A DNA stretch of 17,610 bases from Jimgerdemannia flammicorona (lineage: Eukaryota > Mucoromycota > Endogonomycetes > Endogonales > Endogonaceae): contig RBNI01002755.1 in NCBI GenBank assembly GCA_003990745.1, positions 1-17,610 on the forward strand. The letters are read 5' to 3'. Below are positions 1 through 17,610 of the stretch, piece by piece (within the stretch, counting starts at the first letter, position 1; every line of letters begins with the position of its first letter). Made by a program: the position numbers and the translations under genes. The notes under the pieces are model-generated. The model was given only the letters and a program-made list of their open reading frames with translations, made no database searches and was not told the DNA's origin.

Positions 1-440
1 TTTTTTGAGAGGCCTTTACTCTCCATACTTCATTCTCTTGCTCTCCATTTCTCATAGATTCATCTTCTATATACCTCATCTTGCCACTTAAAAAGGCTGT
101 CCATACTTCTTACTCGAGATACATTATATATATTATATATATATATATATATTTTTTTTTAAGTGAGGGGCCTTTACTCTCTATGCTTCTATTTTCTTAC
201 TCTTTATTTCTCATAGATTATGCCTCATCTTACTGCTTGAAAATGCTGTCTGTACTCTTTACTTGAGATATATTACATACATTCTCCATACTTTTTTTTT
301 TAAGTAAGGGAACTTTACTCTCTATACTTCATTCTCTTGCTCTCTATTTCTCATAGATTTATCTTCTATATACCTTACCTTACTACTTGAGAAGGCTGTC
401 TATGTTCTTTACTTGAGATATATTACATACATTCTCTATG
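1..440. repeat. Tandem satellite of 140-158 bp units (three copies)
   Basis: Three successive units start with a T-run, then a G-rich stretch and CTTTACTCTC, then a shared block containing TTTCTCATAGATT, a TTGAAAA/CTTGAGAAGGCTGTC segment and ACTTGAGATA. The anchor CTTTACT recurs near 14, 172 and 313. Unit 1 has an expanded (TA)n tract at 122-152. The units differ mostly by transitions and T-run length. The first unit may be cut by the window edge. Read on the minus strand each unit ends in an A-run, so a SINE-like origin is possible, but I see no Pol III box and favour a simple satellite. Confidence 0.75.
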
Positions 441-1000
441 TTTTTTTTTTTTTTTTTTTAGAGGGGGCTTTTTGCTCACTCTGCTTCATTCTCTCACTCA
501 CTCCACTTCATTCCCTCACTTGCTCTGCTTTTATTCTCTCACTCACTCTGCTTTCATTTCCTTACTTATTCTACTTTTATTCCCTCACTCACTCCACTTT
601 CATTTCCTCACTTGCTCTGCTTTCATTCTCTCACTCACTTTACTTTCATTCTCTCACTCACTCTGCTTTCATTTCCTCACTTACTCTACTTTCATTTTCC
701 TCACTTGCTCCACTTTCATTCCCCTCATTCACTCTGCTTTTATTCTCTCACTTGCTCTGCTTTCATTCTCTTACTCACTCTGCTTTCATTTCCTCACTCA
801 CTCCACTTTTATTCTCTTACTTGCTCTACTTCACTTCTCTCACTTACTCTACTTTACTTCTCTCTCTCTCTATTTCTTACAGCTTATCTTCCATATGTCT
901 CATTACTTGAAAAGGCTGTTTATACTCTATTCTGACCACTCTGACATATCTTGCTACTTGAAAAGGCTATCTGCACTCTTTGCCTAAGGTATGTACTTTA
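441..1000. repeat. Fourth satellite unit expanded by a 22-bp CT-rich minisatellite
   Basis: After a 19-base T-run the unit begins as the previous three (GAGGGGGC), then about 17 copies of a 22-bp motif of the type CTCACTCACTCTGCTTTCAT fill roughly 475-858. After a short (TC)n run the ancestral unit resumes with TATTTCTTAC, ACTTGAAAAGGCTGTTTATA and a second ACTTGAAAAGGCTATCTGCA. Copy differences are mostly C/T. The strand is strongly asymmetric (pyrimidines on +). Long open frames run through all three forward frames because 22 is not a multiple of 3 and the repeat lacks stops; I do not regard them as genes. Confidence 0.8.
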
Positions 1001-1106
1001 TATGTATTCTCTAATCCACCTTACATTATCTCACCTCACCTCACTGTTTTTGATATATTACTTTTAGTACATTGCTTTTGGTACATTGCATTTATTCTCT
1101 ATAATG

Positions 1107-1190
1107 ATGTTTGCTAAGCTGATATTTGTTAAGCCAATGTTTACTAAGCTAATGTTTGCTGAGCTGATGTTTTTTTTTTTTTTTTTTTTT
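1107..1190. repeat. 15-bp tandem repeat (4 copies) followed by poly-T
   Basis: Four contiguous 15-mers of the form ATGTTTGCTAAGCTG lie at 1107, 1122, 1137 and 1152, differing by C/T and G/A plus G/A-type changes, then ATG and a run of 21 T. The unit is a multiple of three and would read M/I-F-x-K/E-L/P, but no credible gene surrounds it. About 40 bases upstream is a looser pair of TTTTAGTACATTGC-like repeats. Confidence 0.75.
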
Positions 1191-1500
1191 ATAGTTACTT
1201 GGACTCCTTCCTTTATTAATATATCCATCTATTCTATATATAAGATACTGTGCCCACCCCTAACCAATTCCCCTAGGCCCCCCCCCTCCCCCTACCCTCT
1301 CTCAATGAAAGACTACTTTGTCATTTACCATCTCCACCCATCCACCACTCTGTTTATATATCTCTTCCATCAGATGGTAATAATGCCCACCCTGGGGACC
1401 CCAACCAACCCACTATCTGGTCAGCAAATCTCCCAACAACCCCTTCTATCTTGACAACTTCTCCTATATACCCATCTGTCATCTCTTCTCAAAAACAAAG
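1191..1500. other. C-rich intergenic stretch, no recognisable gene
   Basis: Unlike its surroundings this stretch is C-rich on +, with a CCCCCCC/CCCCC tract near 1280 and many CCA/CCC triplets. Forward frames are fairly open and proline/threonine-rich, but none shows a family signature, and the only ATG-initiated frame begins in the 15-bp repeat and T-run. I see no RNA gene or mobile-element end. It may be a decayed fragment of a Pro-rich coding sequence. Confidence 0.3.
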
Positions 1501-1599
1501 AGCCAATGTCCAGCCAGCCCTACCTATAAGCTGATGTTTACTATAATAATATACTAGTAACATAAAGACTGATTGGGAGAGTGTTTTCTGATCTGTACC

Positions 1600-2012
1600 A
1601 AAAATATACTCTCTCATTTCTGAGAAGAACCTCTTGTAGTCTATCTTTGATATTTCATCTAAAAGACCATTTGGGAGAGTATCTCTCAATTTGTACCAAC
1701 AAAGTACTCTCTCTCCAGAGAAGGACCTCCTGTAGCTGGTCTTCAGTATCCTGGAGAGGCTGATCAGGATAGTGTCCTCTTATTTGTGCTAGCTATATAC
1801 TCTCACTTTAGTAGAGAACCTCTTTCAGCTAGCCTCTGATATTCACCCTTAGGAGGAGGACTTCTGGCAGCTGAGCTTACCTATCTTGCCATGGCAGGGA
1901 TATCATGAGGATGACTGGAGACTGGTTGGGAGAGTGACTCCCAATCTGTACTGATGATGTCCTCTCTCTTCAGAGAAGTACCTCTCATGGCCAGTCTCTG
2001 GTATCTTTCTAT
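1600..2012 (-). pseudogene. Decayed tandem-repeat protein segment (32-residue repeat)
   Basis: On the minus strand one frame starting near 2009 reads RYQRLAMRGTSLKREDIIST and continues through a 96-nt periodic repeat. Aligned pieces of successive copies are REDIISTDWESLSQPV, EYIASTNKRTLS, REYFVGTN and REYIFGTDQKTLSQSV, each preceded by an R-G-[TS]-S-L-K-like stretch. There are four clear copies and one partial copy (about 1855-1914). Eight in-frame stops (TAG/TGA) occur where other copies show Arg, Gln or Trp, and a 2-base insertion shifts the last copy. The constant phase over about 380 nt argues for a former protein-coding repeat rather than a neutral satellite. I do not recognise the family. 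Confidence 0.5.
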
Positions 2013-2154
2013 ATCTCTCAGCATCTCTTATTAGTCATGTTTTTTTTTTTTTCCATTCTGACAATCCCTCTCTTTGCACTGCCAGGTTCTTTCAGTATAT
2101 TATTGTGAAATGAAAGATAATTTTATCTCTACTGATTTTACTGACTACTTTGAG
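2013..2154. other. Spacer with T-run, nothing recognised
   Basis: Contains a run of 14 T near 2039-2052 and a CT-rich patch. No repeat, promoter or RNA feature could be supported. Confidence 0.4.
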
Positions 2155-2446
2155 GTAGAAGTTAGAGATTGCTTTAGTAATTCCCTCAACCCTTCTATCT
2201 AGTAAAGTTGGTCCTAGGTTGGATTTTGGAAAACTCTTGGAATATGATATTTTGGAAAAGTTTTTAGACTTGCTAGCTTATGTGATTGATATAGAGCAAG
2301 AAATTGATGTACTTCAGGAGATGTTTAGAAGTCTCTACTATGAGGAATTGTCTGAGCTATAGTATTTTCATTTTTCTGAGAGCTCTTCTCTGATGGGTCA
2401 GAAAATATATAATCAAATTTTTCAATATCTTCCTACTATTTAAGTA
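2155..2446 (+). pseudogene. Coding-like fragment, unrecognised
   Basis: A forward frame without an ATG is open for about 65 codons to a TAG near 2359 and, read past it, for about 28 more to a TAA near 2443. It contains the acidic, helix-like stretch LDFGKLLEYDILEKFL followed by DIEQEIDVLQEMFRSLYYEE, suggestive of a coiled coil. A GTAAGT at the end of the open stretch and a TTTTCAG just after it resemble intron borders but could be chance in such AT-rich DNA. No family recognised. It could be the remains of a host gene or of another transposon. Confidence 0.3.
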
Positions 2447-2456
2447 AGTTTTCAGA

Positions 2457-2526
2457 TTTTATTTTATTTTATTTTATTTTATTTTTAAGAGAGAGGAGGG
2501 GGGGGAGGGAGGGGGGGAGAGAGGGG
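2457..2526. repeat. (ATTTT)n microsatellite joined to a G-rich purine tract
   Basis: About six ATTTT units are followed directly by a purine-only tract with G-runs of 9, 3, 7 and 4 separated by A or AGA (about 2488-2526). The G-runs could form an intramolecular G-quadruplex on the + strand. Nothing shows that it is functional. Confidence 0.7.
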
Positions 2527-2830
2527 ATGTAAAGGTGTGCCCATTCAAATTATTTATAAGATTATTTTGCTTTTTATTTTAATTTTTAGAAAATGAAGAA
2601 GGATTGATGTAAAATACTATTTGCAGATTTTTTAGATCAACAATATCAATATTAGATAAATCAGCAAAATCTCAAGATCAAATTTATCCAAACTTAGTTC
2701 TATATTCCAAGTCTGCAGGATTTCAAAATACTGAGAATTCTGAGGCTTAATCTTTTAGAAGGTTAGATAACAACACTTTATACATATACAAAATCTAAAA
2801 GAAGTAGGATAGCAATATTCTGTCAAGTCT
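2527..2830. other. AT-rich stretch with broken coding-like frames
   Basis: Short forward frames look protein-like (for example around 2620-2760) but switch frame and hold many stops. TTTTAATTTTTAG at about 2577-2589 resembles a 3' splice site. It is probably continuous with the decayed frame that follows, but I cannot define a gene. Confidence 0.25.
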
Positions 2831-3766
2831 TTAGAAAAAGGGTGCCAAAATTGTTTTTGAACTGTAATATTTTTGGAGTCCTCTATCTTGCTAGCTGGTA
2901 TTCTAAATTCACATCACAATTATATTCTCTTAGATACTGATATGAAGAAAGTTATTCTTATCATTTGGAGGAGAATGTTGGAAGGTCAAATAAGCCAGAT
3001 TTTAACAGATATTTATAAGAAGATATTCAAAGTTCAGAAAGCTGGATTGTATGATAAAGCTTAAGCTAAAACTGAATCTTATATATCAACTGGCTACACT
3101 TTGACCTATACTGGAGAGATGCATTATAGTATTATATCTCTCAATAATTTTAAACCAAAAATTGGACAAGATAAATGAGAGGAATATGAAATAGTTATTA
3201 TAGAGATAGCTTTACTTCTTTTCAATACTTCTTACCAGATATAGTGATAAATTCCCTTGCTTTATCTAATTTTTAACCAATTCAATGCTCCTTATTATTT
3301 ATCTCCTGAGGAAATTTCAGGGAGTATCTCAATATTCTTGGCATTCTTGGTATCCTCAGTATCTCTGGCATCCTTAGCATCTCCAACATCCTCAGTATTC
3401 TTGGTATCTCTGATATCTCTGACATTCTCAGTATCCTTGATATCTCTAACATTCTTGACATTCTCAACTTTAGTACTAGCATCTTTATTAGCTTTGAAAT
3501 TACCTAGAATAGATAGAGGTCAGATAAATCTGAGTCAATCTGGAATACATTTTAGACTTGAAGAATTTCAGTTTGAGCAAAATATAGTAAAAGTCAGCAA
3601 TATATTTTTTGACTAATGTGTAAGCTCTCCTACTTATACTGATCAAGATGTGATACCTGTTTTACTCTGCATTGTCAAATATAAAGAATAGTATATCTCA
3701 AAATCCAGGAGTTTGTTTTATAATTTAGCTTATGATATGTATCAGAGTTCTGCTAGAGTCTAATAT
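2831..3766 (+). pseudogene. Long decayed reading frame, unrecognised
   Basis: One forward frame can be followed for about 310 codons. Interruptions are few and mostly of the type expected from C-to-T or G-to-A change: TAA at 3062 between KA and AKTESY, TGA at 3176, three consecutive stops TAG TGA TAA at 3242-3250, TAA at 3614, TAG near 3689 and TAA near 3764. Segments include TDIYKKIFKVQKAGLYDKA, NQFNAPYYLSPEEISGSI and a later RLEEFQFEQNIVKVSNIFFD. Residues coded at about 3330-3480 form a low-complexity [SL]-[AIV]-rich run from a 9-12 bp DNA repeat. I do not recognise the family. The Gln/Trp-type stop placement matches decay in the retrotransposon. Confidence 0.4.
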
Positions 3767-4134
3767 AATGATAGTGTTTTACTCAAATCAACTACATGAT
3801 TTGATAATTATTAGAGATAAGGAAGTTTTGAACAGTTTATCTCTAAGTATCTATTACAGAATCTTAGAAGTTGTATACTACTATAATAATTTTTTTGGAA
3901 ACTTAGGAGAGCAAAAAAATCTATAGATATTTTGTATATTTGGTAACTGATTTTCATGTTATATTATAGTTTTTAAATATTTGGTAGAAGTTTGGCAAAT
4001 ATAGTATTCTTTTTTTGGGGGGTTTTTTTTACTAAAGAATTGCTCTTTTTGTGGACCTATCAATTTGTGCTAGTTGACTCCTAATTCAGTTTAGTTTGTT
4101 ATCTGAAGAATTTACCAAGATTCTAGCTTCTAAG
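3767..4134. other. AT-rich spacer, nothing recognised
   Basis: Short forward frames with many stops, a TTTTTTTGGGGGG junction near 4012-4022, and no repeat, RNA gene or signature. It may be the eroded 3' continuation of the preceding decayed frame. Confidence 0.3.
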
Positions 4135-4342
4135 GTGAATTTGAGTTGGCTCAAATTGACCTGAACTCATCATATATTGAATTTAAATTTGAACTGATTC
4201 AAATTCATCACATGATGAATTCAAATCAATTTAAATTTATTACATGATAAATTTGAACCAATTCAAATTCATTACATAATGAATTCAGATTAATTCAAAT
4301 TTATCATATGATGAATTCGAACTGGCTCAAATTAGTCACATG
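4135..4342. repeat. 32-bp tandem repeat with palindromic core, about 6 copies
   Basis: Exact 32-bp spacing from 4215: copies start at 4215, 4247, 4279 and 4311, each of the form ATGAATTCAAATYRATTYAA then ATTYATYACATG. Two longer, more diverged copies precede them (about 4135-4175 and 4176-4214). The junction between copies, TCATCACATGATGA-like, is near-palindromic, and TTGAA/TTCAA are also arranged symmetrically. Substitutions between copies are overwhelmingly C/T or G/A. There are no unique spacers, so it is not CRISPR-like. Confidence 0.8.
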
Positions 4343-4439
4343 GTTAGTAAATTCAAATTAGGTTTGAATTTCTCTAACTTGATCAGAGTACTAATAAAGA
4401 ACTTAATAAATAGTAAAGAGAATCTTAGCAAAGGAAACT

Positions 4440-4950
4440 TTAGTATATTTTTTAAATAGATCTATTTATATATATAATTTATACTTCATTATCTATCTCT
4501 TTATATATTTTAAAACTAATAAGTTTTAATTTATAAGTAATATTTATATATTTGAAAGATTTTTTTTTTATAAATTTCTATATAAGTATTAATTCTATAG
4601 AATTTAAAACTATAGATATTATTTTTTAAAAATTTTAAAAGTTATAATTATAATTTTTCTAGTACATTACTTTATTCTTTTTTAATATATCTCAATAAAG
4701 TTAAGTTTATAATAAATCTTTTAATAAAAGATAATATTTTAATTTTTTCTTTTTATAATATTTTTAAATAAAAATTTCCAAATTATAAAATTAAACTATA
4801 GTTTTAAAATTTATTAAGTATAATATCTCAATTATATAGAATTTTTATTAATAGCTATTTATATTTATTATATATTTTTAATAGATTCTTTTATCAAAGT
4901 TCTCTTTCTATTAATATTTATTTATATTATTAAAGAAAGTATCTCTTAAT
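4440..4950. other. Extreme AT-rich block, left of the retrotransposon
   Basis: About 500 bases almost without G or C, no CpG, and stops in every frame. Together with the block on the far side of the element it appears to be the original insertion target. This composition is typical of heavily RIP-mutated or otherwise C-depleted fungal repeat DNA. No ancestral element can be recognised. Confidence 0.6.
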
Positions 4951-4951
4951 A

Positions 4952-4955
4952 GTAC
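4952..4955. repeat. Target-site duplication, left copy (GTAC)
   Basis: GTAC lies immediately before the 5' LTR and again immediately after the 3' LTR (15222-15225). Including the preceding A it could be read as AGTAC on both sides if the last A of the 3' LTR is assigned to the flank, giving 5 bp. Either length fits Ty3/gypsy integration. Confidence 0.75.
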
Positions 4956-5069
4956 TATGATAAACTAGGATGTACCACCTGAATTATACCTTAGCCAGAT
5001 AACGCGAATAATTAGTCAGATGACATGAACATATAGTATAGTAACCAGCAACCATTGCTGCAGAAACTG

Positions 5070-5078
5070 TATAAATAG
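5070..5078 (+). promoter_or_regulatory. TATA box of 5' LTR
   Basis: TATAAATAG lies 115 bases inside the LTR and is identical in both LTRs although their surroundings differ, suggesting the RNA polymerase II core promoter of the element. Transcription would start some tens of bases downstream, placing U3 at about the first 140 bases. Confidence 0.55.
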
Positions 5079-5224
5079 CCAGACTACCAGATAAGGTATA
5101 TCTGTGCAGGATCTGCACACTTGTGCTAGACCTACACAACTTGTCATAAATAGCAAATCTATAGTTAGCCACTTAGTAACCAGATAGCAACCAACTTATA
5201 TAAATTACCCCAGAGACAAGAGTG

Positions 5225-5230
5225 AATAAA
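5225..5230 (+). terminator. AATAAA polyadenylation signal in 5' LTR
   Basis: AATAAA within GAGTGAATAAACCTCAG, about 150 bases downstream of the TATA box and conserved in the 3' LTR. In a working element only the 3' LTR copy would be used. Confidence 0.45.
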
Positions 5231-6286
5231 CCTCAGTCCAAAAGTTGAATACAAACTAAAGCAAAAGTCAATTGTCTGATATACTTAGGAGAAACACCTG
5301 CTAAAAGTCACTTGATCTAGGAAGGATTGTAATACTTAGGAGATATGTCTGCCAATGAGCCACTGCCAAGAAGTTGTGAGCTTGGTTCTCTTCTCTTCTA
5401 CTCCAGTCCACTTTCTGATATAAAGAATAAGTCTGTTTTTGGTCTGCTTGCCAGATAAGCCTGAAGTTTGCCACCAAGTTCAAGGAAGAACTTCACCACC
5501 CTTTTTCAAGAAGCTCACCATTTCTAAGTTCTTCGCCATATTCCTAGTTGAAGCCGCTGGTTCAGGAAGAATCTGCGACATCTAAGTAATCCACACCATT
5601 CACTGTTTTGAGTTATCTGCATTCTCAGAAGAATCTGCACCATCTGAGTTAATTCCCAGTTAAGCCACCATTTTCAAGTTATCTGCAATTTTCAAGTTAT
5701 CCACCATATTTCCAGTTGAAGCTGCTGATTCAGGAAGAATCCATGTCATCAAATTTCCAGAAGAGCCATTGATTCAGGAAGAATCTGTGATATCTGAGTT
5801 ATTTGTTCCCAGTGAGTCCGGTATAGAAGAAACCATGCCAGTATAATTCCCAGTAAGTCAAATCGAGTTGTCTACCAGATCCACATAAGGAATATCACCA
5901 AGATCATTATACCAGAAATCGCATACTTTTGGAGATCATCACACTACACAGAGATCGCTCATCACTCAAGAAGGAGAACTGCTAAATTGCCAGACTATCA
6001 TACAGAGATCGTTGTGCTATACAAATTGTGACATTCCCAGTTAACCCAAGAAGGAAACCCATTCACACATACAAATCGCCATTACATCCAGAGAACCATC
6101 CCAATTAGGAAATTGACATACAAATTGCTTGCAGATATCCAGCTTTGACTATTATATCACTAAACACCAAAGACCTCAGGAACCAAGAACATTTTGTTGC
6201 TTTTGACAAAGTAACTGGGGGCTCAAGCCAAACTACATCAACTCCCAACCTTGTAATTTGCCTCCATTGAGCTGGTACATTACATT

Positions 6287-6303
6287 TGGAGACTCAACTG
6301 AGA
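6287..6303 (+). promoter_or_regulatory. Candidate primer-binding site
   Basis: Two bases after the LTR end the sequence TGGAGACTCAACTGAG begins with TGG, the complement of a tRNA 3' CCA end, in the place where minus-strand DNA synthesis is primed in LTR elements. I could not assign the primer tRNA by eye, and self-priming is not excluded. Confidence 0.45.
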
Positions 6304-6323
6304 ATATTTCAAAATTGACATAA

Positions 6324-8339
6324 CTTTTCAGCTCACAAGAACCCACAGTCAAGCTGGATACATTTGATACAACACCAACCTCTGCTACTATAGGAGAACT
6401 AGTTATTACCAGTATTTGGACAGGAAGAGAAGTAATTACTTCAAGACTTGCTAATTACCCAGTATCAGAAGGATCTCAACCAGAACCAGAAGGCAGTACA
6501 GCCCAAAATCTCCAACCAGATCAACCAGACAATACAGACAGCCCTGCTAGAGATTTTGGAGAACTTGCACAAGAACTAGAAGATCTTATCACATGAACCC
6601 AATACTTTACAGCCAGACACCCCACACCAGTCCCACCAATCTCACCAATAGAACCCCTACCATAACTTCTTGCAGAACCAGAAGTAGCTCCTACAAGAAT
6701 ACCTAGGCCTATTCCACTCTACCCAAGGACCAGAACACCATCCTCAAGATACCCAAGTACCCCTATCTCTAGTGATAGTTCAGAAAGTGAATCAGAATCA
6801 GAATCCGAACCTGAACCAGAATCAGAAGAAAGTGATGATGAAATGACCACCTCATTGCCAATCTTTGCAGGATACCCAGAGGAAGACCCCAGAGAATTCC
6901 TTGATAGAATTAAAGAAATTGCAGCTTTGAGGAATCTCTCAGATAAAAGAAAAATTGCCATCTACAAAGCTCAGCTCAGAGGACCAGCCAGAGGAATTTT
7001 CCATCGAACAGCAAACAACTGAGATTCAGAACTAGCAAGATAGATATAAGTAGCAATATCTGATGAGCTAGAATATGAGGCCATGGTCCACTGGCTCATT
7101 GAAAAGTATGCAGGAAACAAAACCTGCCACAAGGCTCAGGAATCCATCATGGGGATGAAGATGAATCTTGGAGAATCACCCAGAGCCTTCTTCACAAGAA
7201 TTCAGAAGAGAATGCATTCTGCCAGGTTCAATGCCACCAACCAGGACATCATAGGTCTAATGACCTTCATGAATGGAATTCCCCTGAATATTGCTCAGCA
7301 TATCTGCACTCTAGGTATCAGAAGGTCTGAAGAGCAAGTAGATGCAGCTCAAGGATTCTTCGATGTCAGACAAGGAACTACCTGGAGTGATCATGACAAA
7401 AAAGAAGATAAAGAAGATATCCTGGTCAAAGCCCTACAAGGACTCCTTCAAGGACAAGAAAGATCTGAAGACAGAAGGCCAGCCAAGGAAGGAAAGAAGG
7501 ACAGAAGTGAAATCCAAGATCTCAGCTCCAAGTTAGACTGATTGGTTGGACAGATTGAAAAACTCACCACATGCGAAAATTTGGGCTACCAAGACAACGG
7601 GGGATACCCATCACAGAGGAGCCAAGGTTATCTACCAAGAGATAACAGGAGTTACTAGCAAGAAGAAAGAAGATATCCTGTCTGAGACAGAGTCCAAGTC
7701 TAATGCTTCCACTGTAGACAACTCAGACACTATGCCACTGAATGTGACAACAAAAAAAGTGACTGAAGGGGCTCAGAACCAGCAAACTGAAGAAGTGACA
7801 CCCAGTATAAGAGGACTGAAGCCCATCCTGTTGAAGATTTCGAGGAAGCAAGTAATAGTGAAGACTACAGTGACCTAGACCTGTACCCTACCAAGGTTAC
7901 CATCTGAAAAACAGTTTACTCAGCAGAGAAAAGGAAGAGACCTGTAGGAAGGCCATCCAGAAATGTCAGCAGAAGAATGATCCAAGAAGAAGACAAAGAA
8001 CATGAGGAGGAACAAGTAGAAACACCTCTCCAAACCCTCTCACCTTTTGTCCCTGAGACAAATGAGTTGCTCCCAGAAGATGAAGAAATGGAATAAGAAG
8101 AATGGGAACCTGCTGCTCCAAAGCCCAAGAAAAAGTACACTCCGAAGACCATGCCTAGAGACATTTACAATGAAGCCTGGCAGAAGTTTCAAGAAGCCAA
8201 GATAGAAGTCCCTCTCCTGCAGTTCTTGTAACTGACACCAGCTGGAGTCTGAAACAAATTACTGAGAACCACCAGGTCTAGCACTGGCCGAGTTTCAATC
8301 CCACAGCAAGAACCAGCTTCCATCCCTGTCCAAGCAGCC
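6324..8339 (+). pseudogene. Gag (capsid and CCHC nucleocapsid), degenerate
   Basis: Gag polyprotein forms the retrotransposon particle and binds its RNA. One frame runs throughout. Its ATG is lost; an ATA at 6390 in a good position could be a mutated start. An acidic Ser/Glu tract (about 6771-6840, ESESESEPEPESEESDDE) is followed by the retrotransposon-Gag core with PIFAGYPEEDPREFLDRI (from about 6858) and later ESPRAFFTRIQKRM. A zinc knuckle CFHCRQLRHYATEC at 7704-7745 fits C-x2-C-x4-H-x4-C exactly. A basic KRKRPVGRPSR stretch follows at 7929-7961. Stops include 6594, 6663, 7020, 7041, 7047, 7539, 7656, 7683, 7701, 7764 and 7788, mostly TGA/TAG/TAA where Trp or Gln fit. The Gag/protease border is not defined. 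Confidence 0.85.
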
Positions 8340-8720
8340 AAAAGACATGTCAGCACCTACTTACATGAAGATATTGGAGGACAAAAAGTGAAAATCCTTA
8401 TAGACACAGGAGCAGCTGTCTATGTCATTGCCAAACGATTCTTGGACACCCTCCAATGGCCCATTGATGGACCATCGAACCTCAGCATCATAGTAGCAGA
8501 TGGAGCTCGAACTCAACCCTTTGGAGAAGTACAAAATATCACCATCTCTCTTGGACACATTCAGTTCTCCATCTCCAAAGCTATTGTCACTAAAGCTGTT
8601 ACCTATAACATGATTCTTGGCACTAACTGGATGAAGGAAATGAATACAGTTATTGATATTGGCCAATAAGTACTCAAGTTTGATTATCGAGGCAAGAAGT
8701 ATAGGGTTAAGGTGACCAGC
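8340..8720 (+). pseudogene. Retroviral-type aspartic protease
   Basis: The protease cuts the polyprotein into mature parts and works as a homodimer, each chain giving one catalytic Asp. In the same frame as Gag, KILIDTGAAVYVIAKRF (from 8388) carries the D-T-G-A active site with Asp at 8403-8405, a flap-like region follows, and ILGTNWM at 8613-8633 matches the family's closing LGxxWL motif. The length of about 100 residues fits a retropepsin. The core is open from 8388 to a TAA at 8667, just beyond the last motif. A preceding TAG/TGA-containing stretch links it to Gag. This is the best preserved module of the element. Confidence 0.88.
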
Positions 8721-10080
8721 TATGAGCAATCAAAGAAGAAGAAGAAGATCACTATTCGGGAAGAGTATGCCAGTAGTGAAGAATCTACTACAGAAGAAGA
8801 GGAAGAATCTGAAGATGGAAATGATCCCAGACTCAATCCCTGAATTAACCTGGTGGATGACAGACCAGAAGACAATGTGTGGGCCAAGAATACCATCCCT
8901 ATCACCATTGGAGCCATTGCAGGAGAAATCAAAGGATGCCCTATATGTCTCAAGAGACACAGGTGTCCTGAGCACTCCTCCAAGATCATGGGAACAAGGA
9001 AATTGCCTGGCACAGCCTGCCCAGAGTGCAGAAGAAGAAGAAGAAATACAGATATATTCCAGAAACACCTACAACTGAAGCTGCAGAAGTACAAGCAATT
9101 TGGGGTCAAGAATCATCTGAGGAAGAAGAAACTTCTGACCAAGAAGTCCCTGAACAAGAAGTACCTGAAGAGGAAGAAGTTCCCAAACTCATCTCCTGGG
9201 ATGACCCTCACTGGACACCACCTAAAGACAATGACCCTTGGAATATAGAAGAAGGACCCAGTATAACCACCATTATTCCCAAGAAAGAAACTTATCAAGA
9301 AAAGGCTTTTTGGCTAGGAAGATGTCCACACCAAATGGTCTTCCACTCTCCCTGAGACTACTGCTACATATCAGTATCATCTGTTGGACCAATAAAAAAG
9401 ACAGAGACCCCAGAGACCAGAACCCCTGACTACTCTTGCACAATCCACCACCTTTCAAGAAGTCACTATAAGGTTACAAAGTCGATTTAGGGGACAAGAC
9501 TTCTTCACCTGAACAGAAATATACCCCTTGTCTATCCTTCTCCTAACCTATAATTAAGATGGGTACCGATTCCCAAGACAACAGGAGATAAATAGCCAGG
9601 AATATCATTTTCGGGCAATGGGATATTGCAACCATGGGAGACACTCTGACTGCCAAGACTGCAGATATCAGAAGATTCACTTCAGTCATGATATTGCAGT
9701 GCACACTTTGAAGAAAGGGGATAACCAAAGCCAGATTTAAAAAAGCCAGATTCGAAAAAGTCAGACCAAGAAGCCCGGAAAAAGAATCCTCAAGATTTAT
9801 GATTTGGGAGAAGACATCCTAGCCCTCATCAGACATACAACCTGCCAAGAATGGGCAGAAGATGCTGCCAACTTCATGGAAGCCCTAGACTCTATAGGAA
9901 GAAGAGAAATCAACTATCTCTGAGATCCTTCCACTGGAGCCAGATGGCCACACCTCAATCTCAGAGCTTGGAGGCTCTCTGCTAGTAGAGCTTCAGCCTT
10001 AGAAAAGCCTGAACTCAGCAAGGATATTGCCCAGTATGCCCTGCTGCACCCCAAGGCCAAACCCTCGACCAAAGCCCACC
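8721..10080 (+). pseudogene. Large Cys/His-rich and acidic insert between protease and dUTPase, unknown
   Basis: About 450 codons with no counterpart in ordinary Ty3/gypsy pol. In order: Lys/Glu-rich linker; a Cys/His cluster CPIC...CPEH...CPEC at 8937-9029 with spacing C-x2-C-x5-C-x2-H-x14-C-x2-C, like a zinc ribbon; an acidic tract with SSEEEETSDQEVPEQEVP (about 9112-9180) read one frame back; WDDPHWTPPKDNDPW; return to the first frame by about 9320; a second cluster CNHGRHSDCQDC followed by three His (9627-9704); and an Arg/Lys-rich then helical stretch up to the dUTPase. Stops include TGA 8841, TAA and TGA sites between 9390 and 9560, TAA near 9738 and TGA near 9921. Zinc binding is inferred only from spacing. 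Confidence 0.55.
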
Positions 10081-10433
10081 CAGAGGATGTAGGGTATAAT
10101 CTTCACAGCCTGGAGGATGAATCTATCAAGCCTGGAAAAACCTTCATGGTCAGAACCAGATTAGCCATGCAGCCACCCTAAGGAGCTTATATTCAACTGA
10201 CCTCAAGGTCCAGACTTGCCAGACAAGGGATAACAGTAGAAGGAGGAACCATTGACCCTGAATATACAGGTGAAATCAAGGTTATTCTATACAACAGCAG
10301 CACAGAATAGCACTGAATCATTAGAGGACAGAAGATTGTCCAAGCAGTCTTCATAAAGGTCAAGACCCCACAGTTACAGAAAGTCTCTGAACTAACTGAA
10401 GGAACAAGACAAGCAAAGGAATTTGGAAGTTCA
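10080..10433 (+). pseudogene. dUTPase domain (trimeric type)
   Basis: dUTPase hydrolyses dUTP to dUMP and pyrophosphate, keeping uracil out of newly made DNA; in an element it would protect the cDNA. Five family motifs appear in order in the Gag frame. Motif 1 VGYNL (10089; family has GYD, here Asn). Motif 2 SRSRLARQG (10203; family RSGLA). Motif 3 GTIDPEYTG (10245-10271) with catalytic Asp at 10254-10256 and the Tyr that stacks on deoxyribose. Motif 4 GQKIVQ (10326-10343; family G-D/E-R/K-I-A-Q). Motif 5 TRQAKEFGSS (10404-10433; family RGxGGFGST). The 118 codons and motif spacing fit one subunit of the roughly 140-residue enzyme. Stops at 10179 (TAA), 10308 (TAG) and 10314 (TGA) kill it. Several deviations, such as Gly to Arg or Glu and Asp to Asn, are explained by G-to-A change. 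Confidence 0.86.
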
Positions 10434-10805
10434 GACAGAAAGGAGATACATCTCCTTCAGGTCAACCAACTCAAGAGGAATGTTCTCCAGCAAGTGTACC
10501 AGCAACCAGTCAGACTGCACAAGAATCTCATCCTGGAGCCTGGAGAACAAACTACCTTCGAAATCTTTGCACCACCTGACCCCAGAAACCTCTTCTTTGA
10601 ACCTAAGGAAGATATCCCACACCTGGACATAGAGGGACACACATTCCCTGACAAGATGAATCCAGTACACTCCCAAGGAACCAACCAAAGTTGGGAGACC
10701 ATTATCTTGCTGAAAGGAACCATTATAGGATATCTGGTGCCTTTTCTCAACCGAACTTATAGGGAAGTTTATGAACTAAACCTATCGGGAAATAGCAAAA
10801 GGTCT
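10434..10805 (+). pseudogene. Protease/dUTPase to RT linker domain
   Basis: An open stretch of 113 codons (10494-10832) plus upstream sequence in the dUTPase frame. It holds KNLILEPGEQTTFEIFAPPD and, later, TIILLKGTIIGYLVPF, a beta-rich pattern that resembles the segment commonly found just before RT in gypsy polyproteins, where a strand ends in KGTxIG. No catalytic motif. The frame ends at TGA 10830 because the coding frame moves by -1 at about 10795-10808 in AGCAAAAGGTCTCAG. Confidence 0.55.
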
Positions 10806-11812
10806 CAGAAGAAAGAAAAGGCCCCTCTGTGACCCAGGAGACAGTGAAGCCTTCCACCAACATTGGAGAAGAACTAACACCTCAACAATAGCAACAACTA
10901 GTAGAACTTCTCAACAAATATCATGATATCTTTACCACCAATTATGGCAATCTGCCATATAATCCATCATACCACCACAGCATAAATACAGGAAATGCAA
11001 TACCCATCTAGCAGAAACCCTATAGAATACCCCATCACTTGAAAACATTTGAAAAGGAGTATATTCAAGAACTCTTAGACAATGGAGTTATCCAACCCTC
11101 TACCAGCCCCTGGGCCAGTCCTATACTTATTATACCAAAGAAAGGAGGATGGAGACTCTGTGTAGATTACAGGAAACTCAATTCAGTCACTGAAAAAGAT
11201 GCCTATCCTTTGCCCAGAATCAATGACCTTTTGGATCAGTTACAAGATACCAGATACTTCAGCAGTATGGACCTCTTCGCAGGATTCCATGAGATCTCCA
11301 TGGACCCCAAGGACATTTAAAAGACAGCCTTCTTTGCTCTAGAAAAACTGTTTGAGTACCTCTGAATGCCCTTTGGACTTTGCAATACACCTCCCACCTT
11401 CCAGAGGATGATGAATTCAGTCTACACCCCCTTGATCTACCATTGCCTGATTGTATACATGGATGATTCCAACATCTACTCAGCAAATTTTGAAGAACAC
11501 CTATACCACCTAGAGGAATTCTTCAAACTCACTCATAAGAACCACTTGAGACTAAATGCAAAGAAATGTTACTTTGGAAAACAGAAACTTGAATTCTTTG
11601 GATTCATAGTTTCGAAAGAAGGAACTCATGCAGACCCCAAGAAAACTGAGAAGATCAATAATTGGCCAGTACCCAAAACCCTGAAGGAGACACTATTATT
11701 TCTGATGCTAGTATCCTACTACAGAAGGTTTATCAAGAACTTCACCCAAATTTCTGCCCCAATCTGGATCCTTCTTAAGAAAGGAGTACCATTCAAATGG
11801 ACAGAATCATAA
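10806..11812 (+). pseudogene. Reverse transcriptase
   Basis: RNA/DNA-dependent DNA polymerase of the element. In the -1 frame relative to Gag-dUTPase: entry region LTPQQ...LLNKYHDIF, then GVIQPSTSPWASPILIIPKK (about 11081), WRLCVDYRKLN from 11150, first catalytic Asp in SSMDLFAGFHEI (11270-11272), MPFGLCNTPPTFQRMMN (11366), catalytic pair in IVYMDDSNIYS (11462-11467), thumb/connection with FGFIVSKEG and YYRRFIKNFTQI. Stops at 10889, 11009, 11318 (TAA), 11363 (TGA) and 11810 (TAA), most where Gln or Arg is expected. Both halves between stops remain readable over 93 and 148 codons, and family identity is unmistakable. Confidence 0.95.
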
Positions 11813-12259
11813 GGAAAAGCCTTCAAAGAACTCAAAAACTGCATGACTACAGCACCAATCCTCATGTGCCCCAATCTACAGAAGCCATTCATCTTGTATA
11901 CAGATGTCTCTAAAGATGGCCTCAGAGCAGTTCTAGCCCAAGAAGGACCTGATCAATAGTACCATATGATAGCTTATGTAAGCAGAGCTACCAATCAGCA
12001 GCAAATGAACTATGGTAGCACCAAACTAGAATGTCTTGCAGTTATATGAACAGTCACCCTGTTCAAGCATTACCTTATTGAAAAAAGGTTCACCCTGATC
12101 ACAGACTATGCAGCTCTCAAATGGTTATTCAACCACAAGAAACCCACCAGAATCCTAGCCTGCTGGATCCTTATCCTTCAGGATTACAAAATCACCATCA
12201 TCCACAAAGCAGAAAAAGCTCACAACAATATTGATGTACTTTCCCACCAGCCCCAATAA
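11813..12259 (+). pseudogene. RNase H domain of pol
   Basis: Removes the RNA strand of the RNA/DNA hybrid during reverse transcription. Continuous in frame with RT. Four acidic catalytic positions are present: Asp in LYTDVSKDG (11903-11905), Glu in TKLECLAV (12029-12031), Asp in ITDYAALKWLFNHKKP (12104-12106) and Asp in NNIDVLSHQP (12233-12235; family usually NADALSR). Stops at 11957 (TAG), 12047 (TGA, where Trp is usual) and 12257 (TAA). The frame changes by -1 around the CCCC run at 12250-12254 to continue into integrase. Confidence 0.92.
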
Positions 12260-13335
12260 ACCAGAAGAAGGGTGTCCCAAGGAACTACACCCTAAAGGAA
12301 GCTCCTCAGACCATCGAGGTACAAGAAGATCTCATCCATAAAGAACATCAGAAAGCCCATCAAGGACAGACAAATACAGAAGACAAGATTCGAAAACTGT
12401 ATCAACACTGGCCTCACCTCAGAACTCAAGTCCAAGACATCATCCAGAAATGTAACATCTGTCAGAAGTACTAAGGAAAGAAGAACTATCAAGCCCCTTT
12501 ACAACTGATTCCCCCACCCACTCACATCTTTCAGAGATGGGGAGTAGATGTAATTAGACCTCTACTAGTTATACTAAGAAGAAACAAATACATCCTTGTA
12601 TTTATGAAACATCTGACCAAGTGGCCCGAGGCTTTCTCAATGGAAATCACAGATGCCTTAACCATTGTAGGCCTCCTCCATGGACTCACACTCAGATATG
12701 GACCCCCAGAAGAACTCATCTCTGACCGAGGCACAGAATTCATCAACAACATAATCATAAGTTATAGCCGAATTCACAAGATCCACCTCAAAAGGACCAC
12801 ATCATACCACCCCCAGACCAATGGCATGACAGAGAGAATGAACCAGACTATCAAGAAAGGACTTGCTCAAGTCAATCCTACTAATTGGGACCTCTGCTTA
12901 TCTGAGATCCTATGGAAAATTTGGAATACCCCTGCCACCTCTACCAAACAAAAGCCATTCGAAATGATGTTTGCCAAGAGAACCAGAACTGCTGACCATG
13001 AGAATCTTGGAGACCTCCTTAAGAAAGCAGAACAGTTATGTAATCAAGCCCGAGGACAAATTATCAAAGTCCAGGAAAGACAAAAGAAGTATTATAACCA
13101 AAAACAGAAGGATCAGAAGATCAAGATTGGAGATCAAGTCCTAGTTTAGAGAAGTATGATTGAAATAAACTTTGCCACCAAACTGGAATCAAAATGGGAA
13201 GGACCGTATCTTATATATAATATTAGAGGGACCAGCATCTATTTAAGAAGTATGGATAGATGAACCCTCAGAACACTAGTACACATCAATCGCCTCAAGA
13301 TATACCTTTCCCCACATCATGAATCAGAGAGTTGA
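12260..13335 (+). pseudogene. Integrase with HHCC, DDE core and GPY module
   Basis: Inserts the cDNA into host DNA. In a second -1 frame: zinc-binding N-terminus with His at 12337/12346/12358 and CNIC at 12451-12462; catalytic Asp in WGVDVIRPL (12547-12549), Asp in LISDRGTEF (12724-12726), and Glu in NGMTERMNQ (12832-12834), giving the exact D-35-E spacing. The core is open for 181 codons (12604-13149). The C-terminus has KWEGPYLI near 13201, a GPY/F module, ending with HINRLKIYLSPHH. Stops at 12472, 13147, 13261 and 13333. No chromodomain motif was found downstream, so chromatin targeting by that route is not indicated. Confidence 0.93.
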
Positions 13336-13834
13336 CAACTGCCTTCAGACTCTTATCCTCAGCTCATTTCAATCACTGCCAGTCCCCTTACCTCAATTCT
13401 GAGAAGTCAATGGGAATACTCTTTAGAAGATCCAGATTCATCAAGAGAATCTTGTCTTGGCCAGATGATTGCTACAGGTCCATCAACTTCAGGCCCACTA
13501 TGCAATTGGAGAACAATTGCAGAACCTCCCAGTCCCAGAACAAACATATATCAGAAATACCACAGGACTATCAAGGAGAGATGTCACTGCTGCCGACAGG
13601 CTCTACACCCTTTACAAGTGAAACCCTACAGCTCTAATGCAAGCACAATTCTCCTGGTATGATACATGAGGAATGAACCTAGCTACCTATCTGAGCATTA
13701 TCAATACTGTTGAAATCTTATTCTCAGAAGAAGAAGAAGAACCCTTGGAATGGAGTGACCATAGTACAGATGACAAAGATGATGGAACAGGTATTGATGC
13801 AGAAAATGCTTACCCATACTGGAATGATGACTAA
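13319..13834 (+). pseudogene. Extra ORF or integrase C-terminal extension, acidic, unknown
   Basis: ATG at 13319 overlaps the integrase stop (13333-13335) in the +1 frame and opens 171 codons to TAA 13832, broken by TGA 13400, TAG 13424, TGA 13466, TGA 13619 and TGA 13667. The protein has HQLQAHYAIGEQLQNLPVP, GLSRRDVTAADRLYTLYK, ALMQAQFSWYD, GMNLATYLSIINTVEILF and an acidic end SEEEEEPLEWSDHSTDDKDD...YWNDD. Four of the five stops are TGA, mostly fitting Trp. It occupies the place of env or other third ORFs in LTR elements, but no signal peptide, glycosylation-rich ectodomain or convincing membrane anchor is seen. It may instead be the integrase tail joined by a frameshift. Confidence 0.5.
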
Positions 13835-13864
13835 AGGATAGTCTGAGGACAGACCATCCTTTAG
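13831..13864 (+). promoter_or_regulatory. Hairpin over the terminal stop codon, next to the PPT
   Basis: CTAAAGGAT-A-GTCTG, loop AGGA, CAGAC-C-ATCCTTTAG: a 9-bp plus 5-bp stem with one A/C mismatch and a tetraloop. It covers the TAA of the last frame and ends at the polypurine tract. Perfect pairing in an otherwise mutated element suggests constraint until recently. A role in RNA 3' structure, packaging or plus-strand priming is inference. Confidence 0.6.
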
Positions 13865-13874
13865 TGGGGGCTGA
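13863..13874 (+). promoter_or_regulatory. Polypurine tract
   Basis: AGTGGGGGCTGA lies directly before the 3' LTR. A G-rich purine run in this position is the RNase H-resistant primer for plus-strand DNA synthesis in LTR elements. The embedded T and CT are mild departures. Confidence 0.65.
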
Positions 13875-13910
13875 TGTGATAAACTAGGATGTACCATCTA
13901 AATTATACCT

Positions 13911-13950
13911 TAGCCAGATGACGTGAACAATTAGCCAGATGACGTGAACA
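13911..13950 (+). promoter_or_regulatory. U3 direct repeat with two TGACGTGA motifs
   Basis: TAGCCAGATGACGTGAACA occurs twice with 21-bp spacing (13911 and 13932), each containing TGACGTGA (13919, 13940), similar to ATF/CREB-type bZIP half-palindrome sites, about 40 bases before the TATA box. In the 5' LTR the copies are mutated to GATAACGCGAATA and GATGACATGAACA. An upstream activating role is inferred from position and duplication. Confidence 0.45.
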
Positions 13951-13988
13951 TATAGCATAGTAACTAGCAACCATTACTGTAGAAACTG

Positions 13989-13997
13989 TATAAATAG
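13989..13997 (+). promoter_or_regulatory. TATA box of 3' LTR
   Basis: TATAAATAG, same position and flanks as in the 5' LTR. A second TATAAATA at 14083-14090 corresponds to CATAAATA in the 5' LTR, so the first is the better candidate. Confidence 0.5.
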
Positions 13998-14162
13998 CCA
14001 GACTACCAGATAAGGTATATCTGTGCAGGACCTGCACACCTGTGCCAGACCTATACACTTGTGCTGGACCTGTACAACTTGCTATAAATAGCAAATCTAT
14101 AGTTAGCTACTTAGTAACTAGATAGCAACCAACTTGTATAAATTACCCCAGAGATAAGAGTG

Positions 14163-14168
14163 AATAAA
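14163..14168 (+). terminator. AATAAA polyadenylation signal in 3' LTR
   Basis: AATAAA in GAGTGAATAAACCTCAG, 174 bases after the TATA box; the copy that would end the genomic RNA. Conserved with the 5' LTR. Confidence 0.45.
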
Positions 14169-15221
14169 CCTCAGTCCAAAAGTTGAATACAAACTACAAC
14201 AAAAGTCAATTGTCTGGTATACTTAGGAGAAATGCCTCCAAAAGTCACTTGATCTAGGAAGGATTGCAATACTTAGGAGATATGCCTGCCAACAAGCCAC
14301 TATCAAGAAGTTGTGAGCTTAGTTCTCTTCTCTTCCACTCCAGTCCACTTTCTGATACAAAGAATGAGTCTGTTTTTGGTCCACTTACCAGATAAGCCTG
14401 AAGTTTGCCACCAAGTTCAAGGAAGAACTTCACCACTCTTTTTCAAGAAGCCTGCCATTTCTAAGTTCTTTGCCACATTCCTAGTTGAAGCCACCAGTTC
14501 AAGAAGAATCCACAACATCCAAGTAATCTGTACCATTCGCTGTTTTGAGTTATCTGCATTCCCAGAAGAATCCACACCATCTAAGTTAATTCCCAGTTAA
14601 GCTGCCATTTTCAAGTTATTCACCATTTTTAAGTTATCCACCATATTCCCAGTTGAAGCTGCTGATTTAGAAAGAATCTATGCCATCATATTCCCAGAAG
14701 AGCTGCCGATTCAGGAAGAATCTGCAACATCTGAGTTATTTGTTCCCAGTGAGCCCAGTACAGAAGAAACCATGTCAGTATAATTCCCAGTGAGCCAAAA
14801 CGAGTCATCCACCAGATCTACATAAGGAATATTGCCAAGATTATCATGCCAGAAATCACATACTTTTGGAGATTGTCATGCTATATAGAGATTACCTGTC
14901 ACTCAAGAAGGAGAACTGCTAAATTGCCAGACCATCACACAGAGATCGTTGTGCTACACAAATTGTGGCATTCTCAGTTGACCCAAGAAAAAAACCCATT
15001 CATATATACAAATCACTGCTATACCCAGAGAACCATCCCAATTAGAAAATTGACATACAAATTGCTCACAGATATCCAGCTTTGACTATTATACTACTAA
15101 ACATCAAAGACCTCAGGAACCAAGAACATTTTGTTGCTTTTGACAAAGTAACTGAGGGCTCAAGCCAAACTACATCAATCCCCAATCTTGTAATTTGCCT
15201 CTATTGAGCCGGCATATTACA

Positions 15222-15225
15222 GTAC
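15222..15225. repeat. Target-site duplication, right copy (GTAC)
   Basis: Matches 4952-4955. The bases beyond (TTATTATTTTT) resume the AT-rich composition interrupted at 4951. Confidence 0.75.
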
Positions 15226-16570
15226 TTATTATTTTTATTAGAATTGAGATTTATACTACTTATCTATTATTATACTATCTATATAAGTATATTTTAATAG
15301 TCTATTGACTTTTAAAATAGAGTTACTAATTATAATAAAGCTTCTTTTATTCTTTTTTGTAATAATATTTTTCTAGTTAAATATTAGATTATATTTTGAG
15401 AATTATTAAATAAAAAATACTCTCATTATAAATATAAAAGATCAATAGATACTTATTATAAAAGAAAGTGAGAATTTCAAAATTAAATAAAGATATTATA
15501 TACTACTAATAGAATAGTCTTTAATATTAATAAAGTTTTTAATTATTTTAATATTTTTAATAGTAATAATAGAGATTTTAATAGAGCCTTTAATAAAGTA
15601 TTTAATACTAAAGTCTTTAATAGAATTTTTAATAAAGTATTTAATAATAATAAAGATATTTCTAATAATAATATCAGAGTCTTTAATAAAGTTTTTAATA
15701 ATAATATAAATATTAATAAGATTTTTAAAGTTTATAAAAATAATATAGATATCTTAATAGTAATAATAGTAAATAACTTTGATTAATATAAAAACTACTT
15801 AAATTATATATCTTTTATATATCTTTATTTAGTTTAAAATTTTTAATAATATGTGTCTACTTTTTTATAACTATTAAAATATACTCTATTTTTCTTACTA
15901 ATTAAATTTATTCAAAAGATTTAAGTTATCTAAATATAGTTTTCTTACTAATAATTTTACTAATATATTTCTATAAAGTTTAAAAAGTAATATTAAATTT
16001 ATAACTATATAACTAAAAACTAATAATAAATATTATTATTAATTAATAGATTTTTGATCTCAAGTATTTTTTCTATATATAATAATAATAATTTTTTATC
16101 AGATTTTTATTCTTTAATCTAGTAAATAAGATAAACTTATATTAGAATAGCTTATAGTTTAACTTTTCTTTAGTATTAATAAACTTTATTTCTTATTTAT
16201 AAGTAAGATTATCTTTTAAAATTATTTAGTAAATAAATTAAAGTTTTTAAAAAAAAAACAATTTTCTGAAATATTATTTTTCTATTAAAAATATAACTTA
16301 ATTTGTTTAAAAAAAAATTTTTTTTATAAAATTTTTACTAAAGTAGAATTATTATATATATAAGATTATTATTATAGACTATTATAATTTTAAAAGATAT
16401 AAATATTTAAAATCTTATTTTTAAATATATATAATTAATATAGATAAAGAGATATTAATAAGATACTCTTTTAATTTTATTAATCATTTTTTTTTAATAG
16501 TAAGTTTATTTTAAATTTTTTTTTTATTATTATTATTTAAATATATCTATAATAATTTCTTAGTTATATT
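15226..16570. other. Extreme AT-rich block, right of the retrotransposon
   Basis: More than 1.3 kb nearly without G/C, ending abruptly near 16575. Repeated words such as TTTAATAAAG and AATAATAAT are common. It continues the block left of the element, so together about 1.85 kb of AT DNA was split by the insertion. No recognisable element remains apart from the open frame described separately. Confidence 0.6.
15487..15786 (+). other. Open frame with Phe-Asn repeats inside the AT block
   Basis: A frame without ATG stays open for 99 codons, ending at TAA 15784, in DNA so AT-rich that stops should come every few codons. The reading is a loose five-residue repeat, VFNKVFN, AFNKVFNTKVFNRIFNKVFN and so on, from a 15-bp DNA repeat GTCTTTAATARAGT. 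It could be a tandem repeat whose original codons were C/G-richer and were converted by transitions. It is not a convincing gene. Confidence 0.4.
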
Positions 16571-17610
16571 TTAGTTATAATGCCTCTTTCTCCACTACTT
16601 TACTGGTTACATTGGTTTAGTAGATGATCTTCCAAGTCCCCTTTTTATAATTATTACCCCCTCTACCTCAGGTTGGTTTGCTATACCTATTGCAGGGCAG
16701 TGAGAGAGAGGCATTGGTGATGAGTTGCCCCTTTATCGGTATCAGATCAGTGTCTTCTCTACTTTTTCACGATTTCTAGTATCTTCAGCTACATCTGGAG
16801 TGCATTTGTTTTGATGTGGTGTCTTCTTTCTTTTGCTATTGCCAATAAGGTATTGTCTTGGTGTGTCTCAGACTATATAGAGAGTTGGCCAACCTTGGGC
16901 ATCAAGTGCTCAGTGTAGGTTATCTGCAGGTCCTTGGTGCTTATGGTGGGGCCCTCTGGCTTTGGTGAGCTTTCTGGCAAGTGCAGTTCTGGCATAAGTG
17001 ACTGCTTTTCAGGTATTATTGGGATGGGAGGAGAGATGGCCATCACAAATAGGAGGAAGGGCAATAATAGTAAACCAGTGGAGTACTAGGCTGGGGGTGG
17101 TCATTGGAGCTGGAATGGACAATATTTCAGTGGGGCCTTTTGATTGGCTGATGGGGGGTAGGGTAGTACAGGGGCCGGCATCCTGGCTATACTCAACTGG
17201 AACTGGGAGCTGATGCAGCAATGCAATTGAGGCCCACAGGCTTGGGGAGTGGGACCTTTCTCATTTGGCTGTACCCGACTGAAACTGGGAGCTGATATAG
17301 CAATATGATTGAGGCCCACAAGCTCAGGAAGTGGGAGTGGGGTCTTTTCTGGTCCTAGCCTATGTGTAAGTCCTTTGTGGAAGGTTCTGCATATAAGTCC
17401 TTTACTCACCCACTTTGAATCTACTCTACTCTCTGTTGGTTGGTTGGGGGGTTTTTTCTTTACCTCAGGCTTTCTTTTGGGGTTTGAAGGGCTATTCTTT
17501 ATTTAGTCCTAGTACTACTAGATCTGATACATAGGTGTGCTCTCACATGTAAATAATGATCCAGCCCTGGTGAGCAGATAAGTCTAGTCTATATCATGGG
17601 TACAAAAAAA
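16571..17610. other. Moderate-GC stretch without recognised gene
   Basis: Base composition changes sharply at about 16575 to roughly balanced, G/T-rich on +. Minus-strand frames at 16873-17064 and 17101-17409 are Pro/Ser-rich (for example PPIPIIPEKQSLMPELHLP) and open for 63 and 102 codons, but have no family signature, and the second is mostly the 82-bp repeat. It might be a decayed fragment of a proline-rich coding region on the minus strand. I see no RNA gene. Confidence 0.3.
17185..17348. repeat. 82-bp tandem duplication
   Basis: The block from GGCTATACTCAACTGGAACT (17185) recurs from GGCTGTACCCGACTGAAACT (17267), sharing CTGGGAGCTGATRYAGCAAT, TTGAGGCCCACARGCT and RGGRAGTGGGA. Differences are mainly transitions. 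A fainter partial copy seems to precede it (about 17100-17155, GGAGCTGGAATGG and GTGGGGCCTTTTGATTGGCT). Confidence 0.7.

Follow-up and report, generated by a model that had tools for sequence, protein, structure and literature searches.

The window, a contig of 17,610 nucleotides from an assembly of 134.8 Mb in 7754 contigs, carries a decayed copy of a Ty3/gypsy LTR element, here called type A, in which a dUTPase domain lies between protease and reverse transcriptase (RT). The domain, its position, the two LTRs, further copies in the genome and a common stop at the end of the first open reading frame (ORF1) were all observed directly. We consider it fairly probable that ORF1 encoded Gag, a zinc knuckle, a protease, a Cys-rich insert, a dUTPase of the homotrimer type and one further domain, with RT, RNase H and integrase in other frames, and that the dUTPase would have acted inside the particle. 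The order protease-dUTPase-RT is already published, and the window element adds an abundant member to it. What is added beyond that is a single fungal genome with at least four types of dUTPase-bearing elements, two places for the domain, and dUTPase and RT relationships that are poorly aligned, which makes it testable why LTR elements keep acquiring a dUTPase though the host should supply the enzyme.

Architecture of the element and its dUTPase domain

The element spans 4958-15221 (10.3 kb; Table 1). It has the two LTRs and candidate target-site duplication, the order of protease, RT, RNase H and integrase, and the Ty3-like RT of the Ty3/gypsy group; the best solved match of the RT was 4ol8 (210 bits), which we take to be Ty3, followed by 7q5b (206.8 bits), named Ty3-G Gag-Pol. 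A preliminary description of this DNA had proposed a Ty3/gypsy element with a trimer-type dUTPase located after the protease and a long insert and before RT, and both the classification and the domain order agreed with that proposal.

Table 1. Positions of features of the element in the window.
Feature	Position	Strand	Basis or remark
Candidate target-site duplication GTACT	4952-4956	+	by eye; one extra A before the LTR
5' LTR	4958-6284	+	88.0% identity to 13877-15221
Gag-like region	6849-7541	+	read by eye
CCHC zinc knuckle CFHCRQLRHYATEC	7704-7745	+	pattern match
Retropepsin-like protease	8358-8708	+	PDB match; LIDTGA 8397-8414, ILGTNW 8613-8630
Cys/His cluster C-x2-C...C-x2-H...C-x2-C in the protease-dUTPase insert	8937-9029	+	frame reading
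dUTPase domain with three internal stops	10065-10433	+	PF00692, TIGR00576, frame reading
Motif 1, VGYNL	10089-10103	+	translated frame
Motif 2, SRSRLA	10203-10220	+	translated frame
Motif 3, GTIDPEYTG	10245-10271	+	translated frame
Motif 4, GQKIVQ	10326-10343	+	translated frame
Motif 5, TRQAKEFGSS	10404-10433	+	translated frame
Conserved domain after dUTPase	10434-10829	+	comparison with relatives
Candidate -1 slippery heptamer GGGAAAT, phase right	10787-10793	+	frame comparison
TGA closing the Gag-protease-dUTPase frame	10845-10847	+	common to 7/7 copies
Reverse transcriptase	11132-11611	+	RVT_1 1.8e-30
RNase H	11798-12187	+	PF17917 1.7e-31, PF17919 4.6e-31
Integrase zinc-binding domain	12319-12471	+	PF17921 4.9e-10
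Integrase core	12616-12867	+	rve_3 1e-4, rve 0.0016, both below the Pfam cut-off
GPY of GPY/F-like integrase end	13201-13209	+	by eye; presumably the GPY/F motif
Purine-rich stretch ahead of 3' LTR	13863-13870	+	by eye
3' LTR	13877-15221	+	alignment to 5' LTR
Candidate target-site duplication GTACT	15222-15226	+	by eye; same five bases as 4952-4956

The protease was recognized best by its match to the PDB entry for retroviral-like aspartic protease 1 (E=1e-5), and it gave no Pfam match even at E 10; a Pfam search of the Gag-like region likewise returned no family. Between the protease and the dUTPase lies an insert of about 1.3 kb, whose Cys/His cluster was matched in Pfam below threshold (E 0.69). 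The domain that follows the dUTPase, also matched below threshold (E 0.15), is 84% identical across the aligned part to P0001, a relative from ENA; a second dUTPase-like barrel at this place was not supported (hhalign probability 0.2%), and an AlphaFold model of P0001 based on four rows reached a pLDDT of 30 and was set aside. Pfam gave no family match to a chromodomain, the mark of chromoviruses when it follows the integrase, in 13150-13665 of this decayed copy, from which such a domain may have been lost earlier.

The differences between the two LTRs comprise 136 transitions versus 5 transversions. Short tandem duplications occur in the 3' LTR at 13910-13950 (21 bases) and 14021-14076 (19 bases), and a 19-base stretch of the 3' LTR is absent from the 5' LTR. 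Directly behind the 5' LTR, TTTGGAGACTC at 6285-6295 could be a primer binding site.

When the translated region 10050-10433 was compared with PF00692, a check proposed in the preliminary description, the match was significant (86.2 bits, E=2.1e-24) and covered the whole domain expected of a homotrimer-type dUTPase (profile positions 6-128 of 129); the cut-off of 22 bits was exceeded both by the window domain and by that of a less damaged copy, L042 (92.6 bits). Against NCBIfam TIGR00576 the window domain scored 97.2 bits (E=6.8e-28), slightly below the cut-off of 102.55, whereas L042 scored above it. One reverse frame across 10050-10433 was interrupted by stops. The five motif strings of trimeric dUTPases that had been read in the frame at the outset were all present, in order and in place. 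The window copy itself is dead and cannot make a dUTPase, because three stops fall within the domain (10179, TAA; 10308, TAG; 10314, TGA) and motifs 1 and 5 are altered: motif 1 has Asn where seven of eight type A copies have Asp, and motif 5 reads EFGSS where six of the eight read GFGSS.

Reading frames and predicted expression

A single decayed frame holds the Gag-like region, the CCHC knuckle, the protease, the Cys cluster, the dUTPase and the domain after it. This frame has 31 stops in 1525 codons, whereas the other two have 66 and 91, and the dUTPase does share the Gag-protease frame, as originally described. The same description had placed the domain inside pol, a label that needs correcting since the dUTPase ends the Gag-protease ORF and RT, like RNase H and integrase, lies in a different frame.

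ORF1 ended in CAGTGA in all seven copies examined, of eight fetched; L002, which is truncated by the end of its contig, was left out of the count. Two protein relatives, P0001 and P0002, ended at the residue matching this position, and we take their ends for the same ORF1 stop. Relative to the tail of ORF1, RT lay in the -1 frame in five of the seven copies, and in other frames, through indels, in L003 and L004. The heptamer GGGAAAT was found in the -1 phase in four of the seven, including the window copy, and in the remaining three an A replaces the first G; downstream of it, no stable RNA structure was detected in five sequences (z -0.53 to 1.12 versus shuffled). On these data we regard a two-ORF layout of type A as likely and GGGAAAT as a candidate slip site. 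If the two-ORF layout is right, the position of the dUTPase ahead of the frame change would tie its synthesis to that of Gag and protease, at a higher level than RT; in retroviruses, according to PMC4531489, translation of the Gag part exceeds that of the complete product about 20-fold.

Other dUTPase-bearing elements and their relationships

At least 304 distinct dUTPase places were counted on 298 contigs of the genome, a figure that pools at least 40 copies of the window dUTPase (93-100% identity) with two protein-level searches yielding at least 150 places each. Loci read individually numbered 38 plus 6, along with a few further regions; with the window dUTPase as query, 8 of the 38 are recovered, and the remaining 30 belong to the distant type B and were found by motif. 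Besides type A, three more types of LTR elements carry a dUTPase: B (L009-L038), C (L039) and D (L053-L058). In all three the domain lies between NC and protease, whereas in type A it follows the protease. In type B (30 of 30 loci fetched), a single frame behind Gag contains CCHC, dUTPase, protease and RT. In the one type C copy examined, Gag, CCHC and dUTPase share a frame; a protease recognized by eye follows, and after it come RT, integrase and a chromodomain (PF00385, 4.5e-17). In type D, with six loci of which one was checked for families, the order is CCHC, dUTPase, Cys cluster and protease. Similar Cys/His clusters of the form C-x2-C...C-x2-H...C-x2-C are thus found near the dUTPase in type D (L054, after the domain) and in type A (8937-9029). 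The active-site residues are kept in B, C and D, except that Phe stands for the motif-3 Tyr in B and D. Pairwise identities of the dUTPases were 44% for A-D, 43% for C-D, 40% for B-C, 38% for A-C and for B-D, and 29% for A-B.

A dUTPase tree of 67 rows grouped A with D (bootstrap 97, SH-aLRT 91) and placed B and C with three cellular eukaryote enzymes (98/97). An RT tree of five rows set B, C and D apart from A and Ty3 (SH-aLRT 94.6, bootstrap 84), and over the same five rows the RT of D was 57% identical to that of C, 56% to that of B and 45% to that of A. Since the dUTPase pairs A with D whereas RT leans, weakly, to a placement of D with B and C, a movement of the dUTPase between element lineages is suggested. 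Alternatively, A and D may have inherited the dUTPase from a common element ancestor with no transfer, the domain having changed nothing but its side of the protease. The A+D clade of the dUTPase tree and the Cys cluster that both types have near the domain are consistent with such inheritance, as is an RT test in which A+D was not rejected (AU p 0.136, five rows), and it is the RT grouping and the RT identities that speak against it; we regard it as possible, though less likely than not. Taken further, movement between lineages might mean that the dUTPase of fungal LTR elements is a mobile cassette, one that would have passed from one element lineage to another within a genome and changed sides relative to the protease. 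In the window lineage it would now close the Gag-protease ORF, just ahead of a -1 frameshift, and be packed at the level of Gag rather than that of RT, and a benefit to several lineages would have led to the at least 304 places. We put this broader proposal forward tentatively and hold it, as a whole, to be somewhat doubtful.

A dUTPase between protease and RT, the novelty of which was at first uncertain, has already been described in fungal, rotifer and planarian elements (PMC2864245, PMC5408684, PMC6431247). Like the window element, PosPlaTy3-5 of Postia placenta (Novikova et al. 2010, PMC2864245) is a fungal Ty3/gypsy element with the dUTPase between protease and RT, although the two were compared by description only, and the survey that yielded PosPlaTy3-5 concerned chromodomain-bearing elements, whereas the window element has no detected chromodomain. 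The elements of Postia placenta carry a dUTPase at three different places, and that genome, like the window genome, has related families with the domain elsewhere; PMC2864245 describes element dUTPases as seemingly acquired independently from different sources, and their role and origin as unclear. The same paper cites two further instances of dUTPase-bearing LTR elements, Tmt1 of Tuber melanosporum (Riccioni et al. 2008) and elements of Phanerochaete chrysosporium (Novikova and Blinov 2008), which resemble the window element as fungal LTR elements with a dUTPase, a likeness drawn through that citation only. Fungal chromoviruses with a dUTPase are mentioned in PMC2774666, and dUTPase is listed among the enriched domains of Entomophthora muscae in PMC11105155; passages of PMC1142308 and PMC4241990 proved unrelated to the question. 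In the literature covered, mainly open-access, no fungal genome beyond Postia was found with several dUTPase element types on both sides of the protease.

Among animal elements, Juno, Vesta and TelKA of bdelloid rotifers share the order PR-dUTPase-RT with the window element and differ from it in their hosts and in having an ORF3 of several kinds; Juno has an extra zinc knuckle after the dUTPase, whereas the Cys cluster of the window element precedes it (PMC5408684). The giant elements of planarians also have the dUTPase between PR and RT, according to PMC6431247. Betaretroviruses, as outlined in PMC4531489, resemble the window element in that the dUTPase lies beside the protease and upstream of the RT frame, and they share the order NC-dUTPase-PR with types B, C and D; the retroviral enzyme is a trans-frame fusion with NC and precedes PR, whereas the dUTPase of the window element follows PR.

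Proposed activity and source of the dUTPase, and decay of the copy

We reasoned that the best-supported working of the domain would be the removal of dUTP in the particle before reverse transcription. The protease would free an active dUTPase within the particle, in Gag-like amounts owing to its place upstream of the frame change; the enzyme would hydrolyse dUTP to dUMP, and RT would thereby be kept from building uracil into the cDNA. The dUTP-removal step is proposed because of the known chemistry of the dUTPase family (PMC4531489). Both enzyme activity and a benefit to the element are presumed.

The catalytic residues of these enzymes include the motif-1 Asp, the motif-2 Ser, the motif-3 Tyr, the motif-4 Gln and the motif-5 Phe. 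All eight type A copies examined, three of which have a stop-free dUTPase, keep the motif-2 Ser, the motif-3 Asp and Tyr, the motif-4 Gln and the motif-5 Phe, and seven of them keep the motif-1 Asp; the five ordered motifs with all six active-site residues are therefore present in seven of the eight, and the window copy, with its motif-1 Asn and its three stops, lacks the full set. The motif-3 Asp is reported as catalytic in PMC4531489. Three relatives, P0001-P0003, are 62-79% identical to the query over 64-66% of its length and keep the active-site residues in the motifs that each covers. Copies without motifs 1, 3 and 4, which the preliminary description had named as a reason to abandon the dUTPase assignment, were not what we found, as copies and relatives alike retain the key residues in the motifs covered. 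A protein search with the window frame gave no full-length relative at E<=0.001 among 144 candidates, no relative was confirmed among 13 stretches from IMG/VR, and none of 115 GTDB contigs (prokaryotes) had the domain that follows the dUTPase.

Conservation of these residues in relatives as distant as 62-79% identity, and in types B, C and D with the exception of the motif-3 Phe noted above, argues for an enzyme and against a domain that the particle keeps for a structural, NC-like or binding role. A non-enzymatic module would be in keeping with the altered state of glycines that are usually conserved: in the TG between motifs 1 and 2, Gly is replaced by Arg in seven of eight copies and by Ser in P0003, and in all eight Asp or Asn stands in place of the final Gly of motif 5. 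Motif 4 also varies among relatives, reading RQKIAQ in P0001 and GENITQ in P0002, and according to PMC4531489 no activity could be detected for the dUTPase of bovine immunodeficiency virus. The pN/pS of the type A dUTPase, 0.52 over seven copies, lends no support for selection on the enzyme either; with control frames at 0.47 and 1.32, it is not below the lower control, so there is no clear selection signal within the genome. For the type B dUTPase, pN/pS was 0.19 (control frames 0.76 and 1.50), a value from a sample biased because its 30 copies were chosen for high profile scores; for the type B protease region it was 0.34 (25 of 28 copies kept). On balance we consider a non-enzymatic module unlikely, and favour an active dUTPase in the particle.

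A direct acquisition of the type A dUTPase from a bacterium or virus, independent of the other types, appears rather improbable. It was hinted at by the best solved match of the domain, 2okb (82.8 bits), presumably a poxvirus dUTPase, and by an earlier dUTPase tree without type D, in which A stood beside row P0029 (97/90). That tree contained 52 rows drawn from type A matches (130-180 in length, ranked 60 or better) alongside just three cellular enzymes, and its sampling leans to A because the rows were chosen from matches to A. When three rows of type D were added to it to give the later tree, A moved from P0029 to D (97/91; A-D identity 44%), so the placement of A depends on sampling and the hint of an independent origin was lost. 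In topology tests, neither a single clade of A, B and C (p 0.156) nor one of A, B and C with the cellular rows (p 0.555) was rejected, the latter also speaking against an independent origin. The chance landing of a dUTPase gene fragment in a single copy, which would suit a dead copy with three stops in the domain, has a negligible probability and is refuted by the same setting in eight copies examined, of at least 40, and by P0001 and P0002, in which the same domain follows the dUTPase.

The host is a fungus, as the preliminary description had supposed, because Fungal_trans matches occur at 22 places in the assembly and at none in 14 control genomes. When a host dUTPase was sought, at least 150 dUTPase places were listed, and the six that were read all lay in an element context; a host enzyme could not be told apart from the element copies. 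The earlier suggestion of host cells poor in dUTPase or active in deaminating cytosine is a conjecture.

The CpG deficit of the window copy and the excess of transitions between its LTRs (136 to 5) show that, once inserted, it decayed by changes of the C-to-T type. A dUTPase, whose substrate is free dUTP, would not be expected to prevent these. In 4958-14600, observed/expected CpG was 0.11 and the composite RIP index was -0.70 (TpA/ApT 0.76 minus substrate 1.46). Small context counts (10 of 24 C>T changes before A, 13 of 27 G>A changes after T) point the other way, toward RIP; because the composite index is negative, CpG loss describes the decay better than RIP does. For truffle, PMC4165359 describes transposons that are heavily methylated at CpG and finds no sign of RIP, and the CpG loss with a negative RIP index in the window resembles that pattern, as a likeness only. 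Outside the element, positions 1-4957 are more extreme than the element itself, with 2 CpG in 4957 bases (observed/expected 0.02). This flank includes a tandem array at 475-868, with about 17 copies of a 23-base pyrimidine-rich unit, which adjoins a 150-base repeat at 14-451, and near the other end of the window an 82-base direct repeat is present in two copies at 17184-17336.
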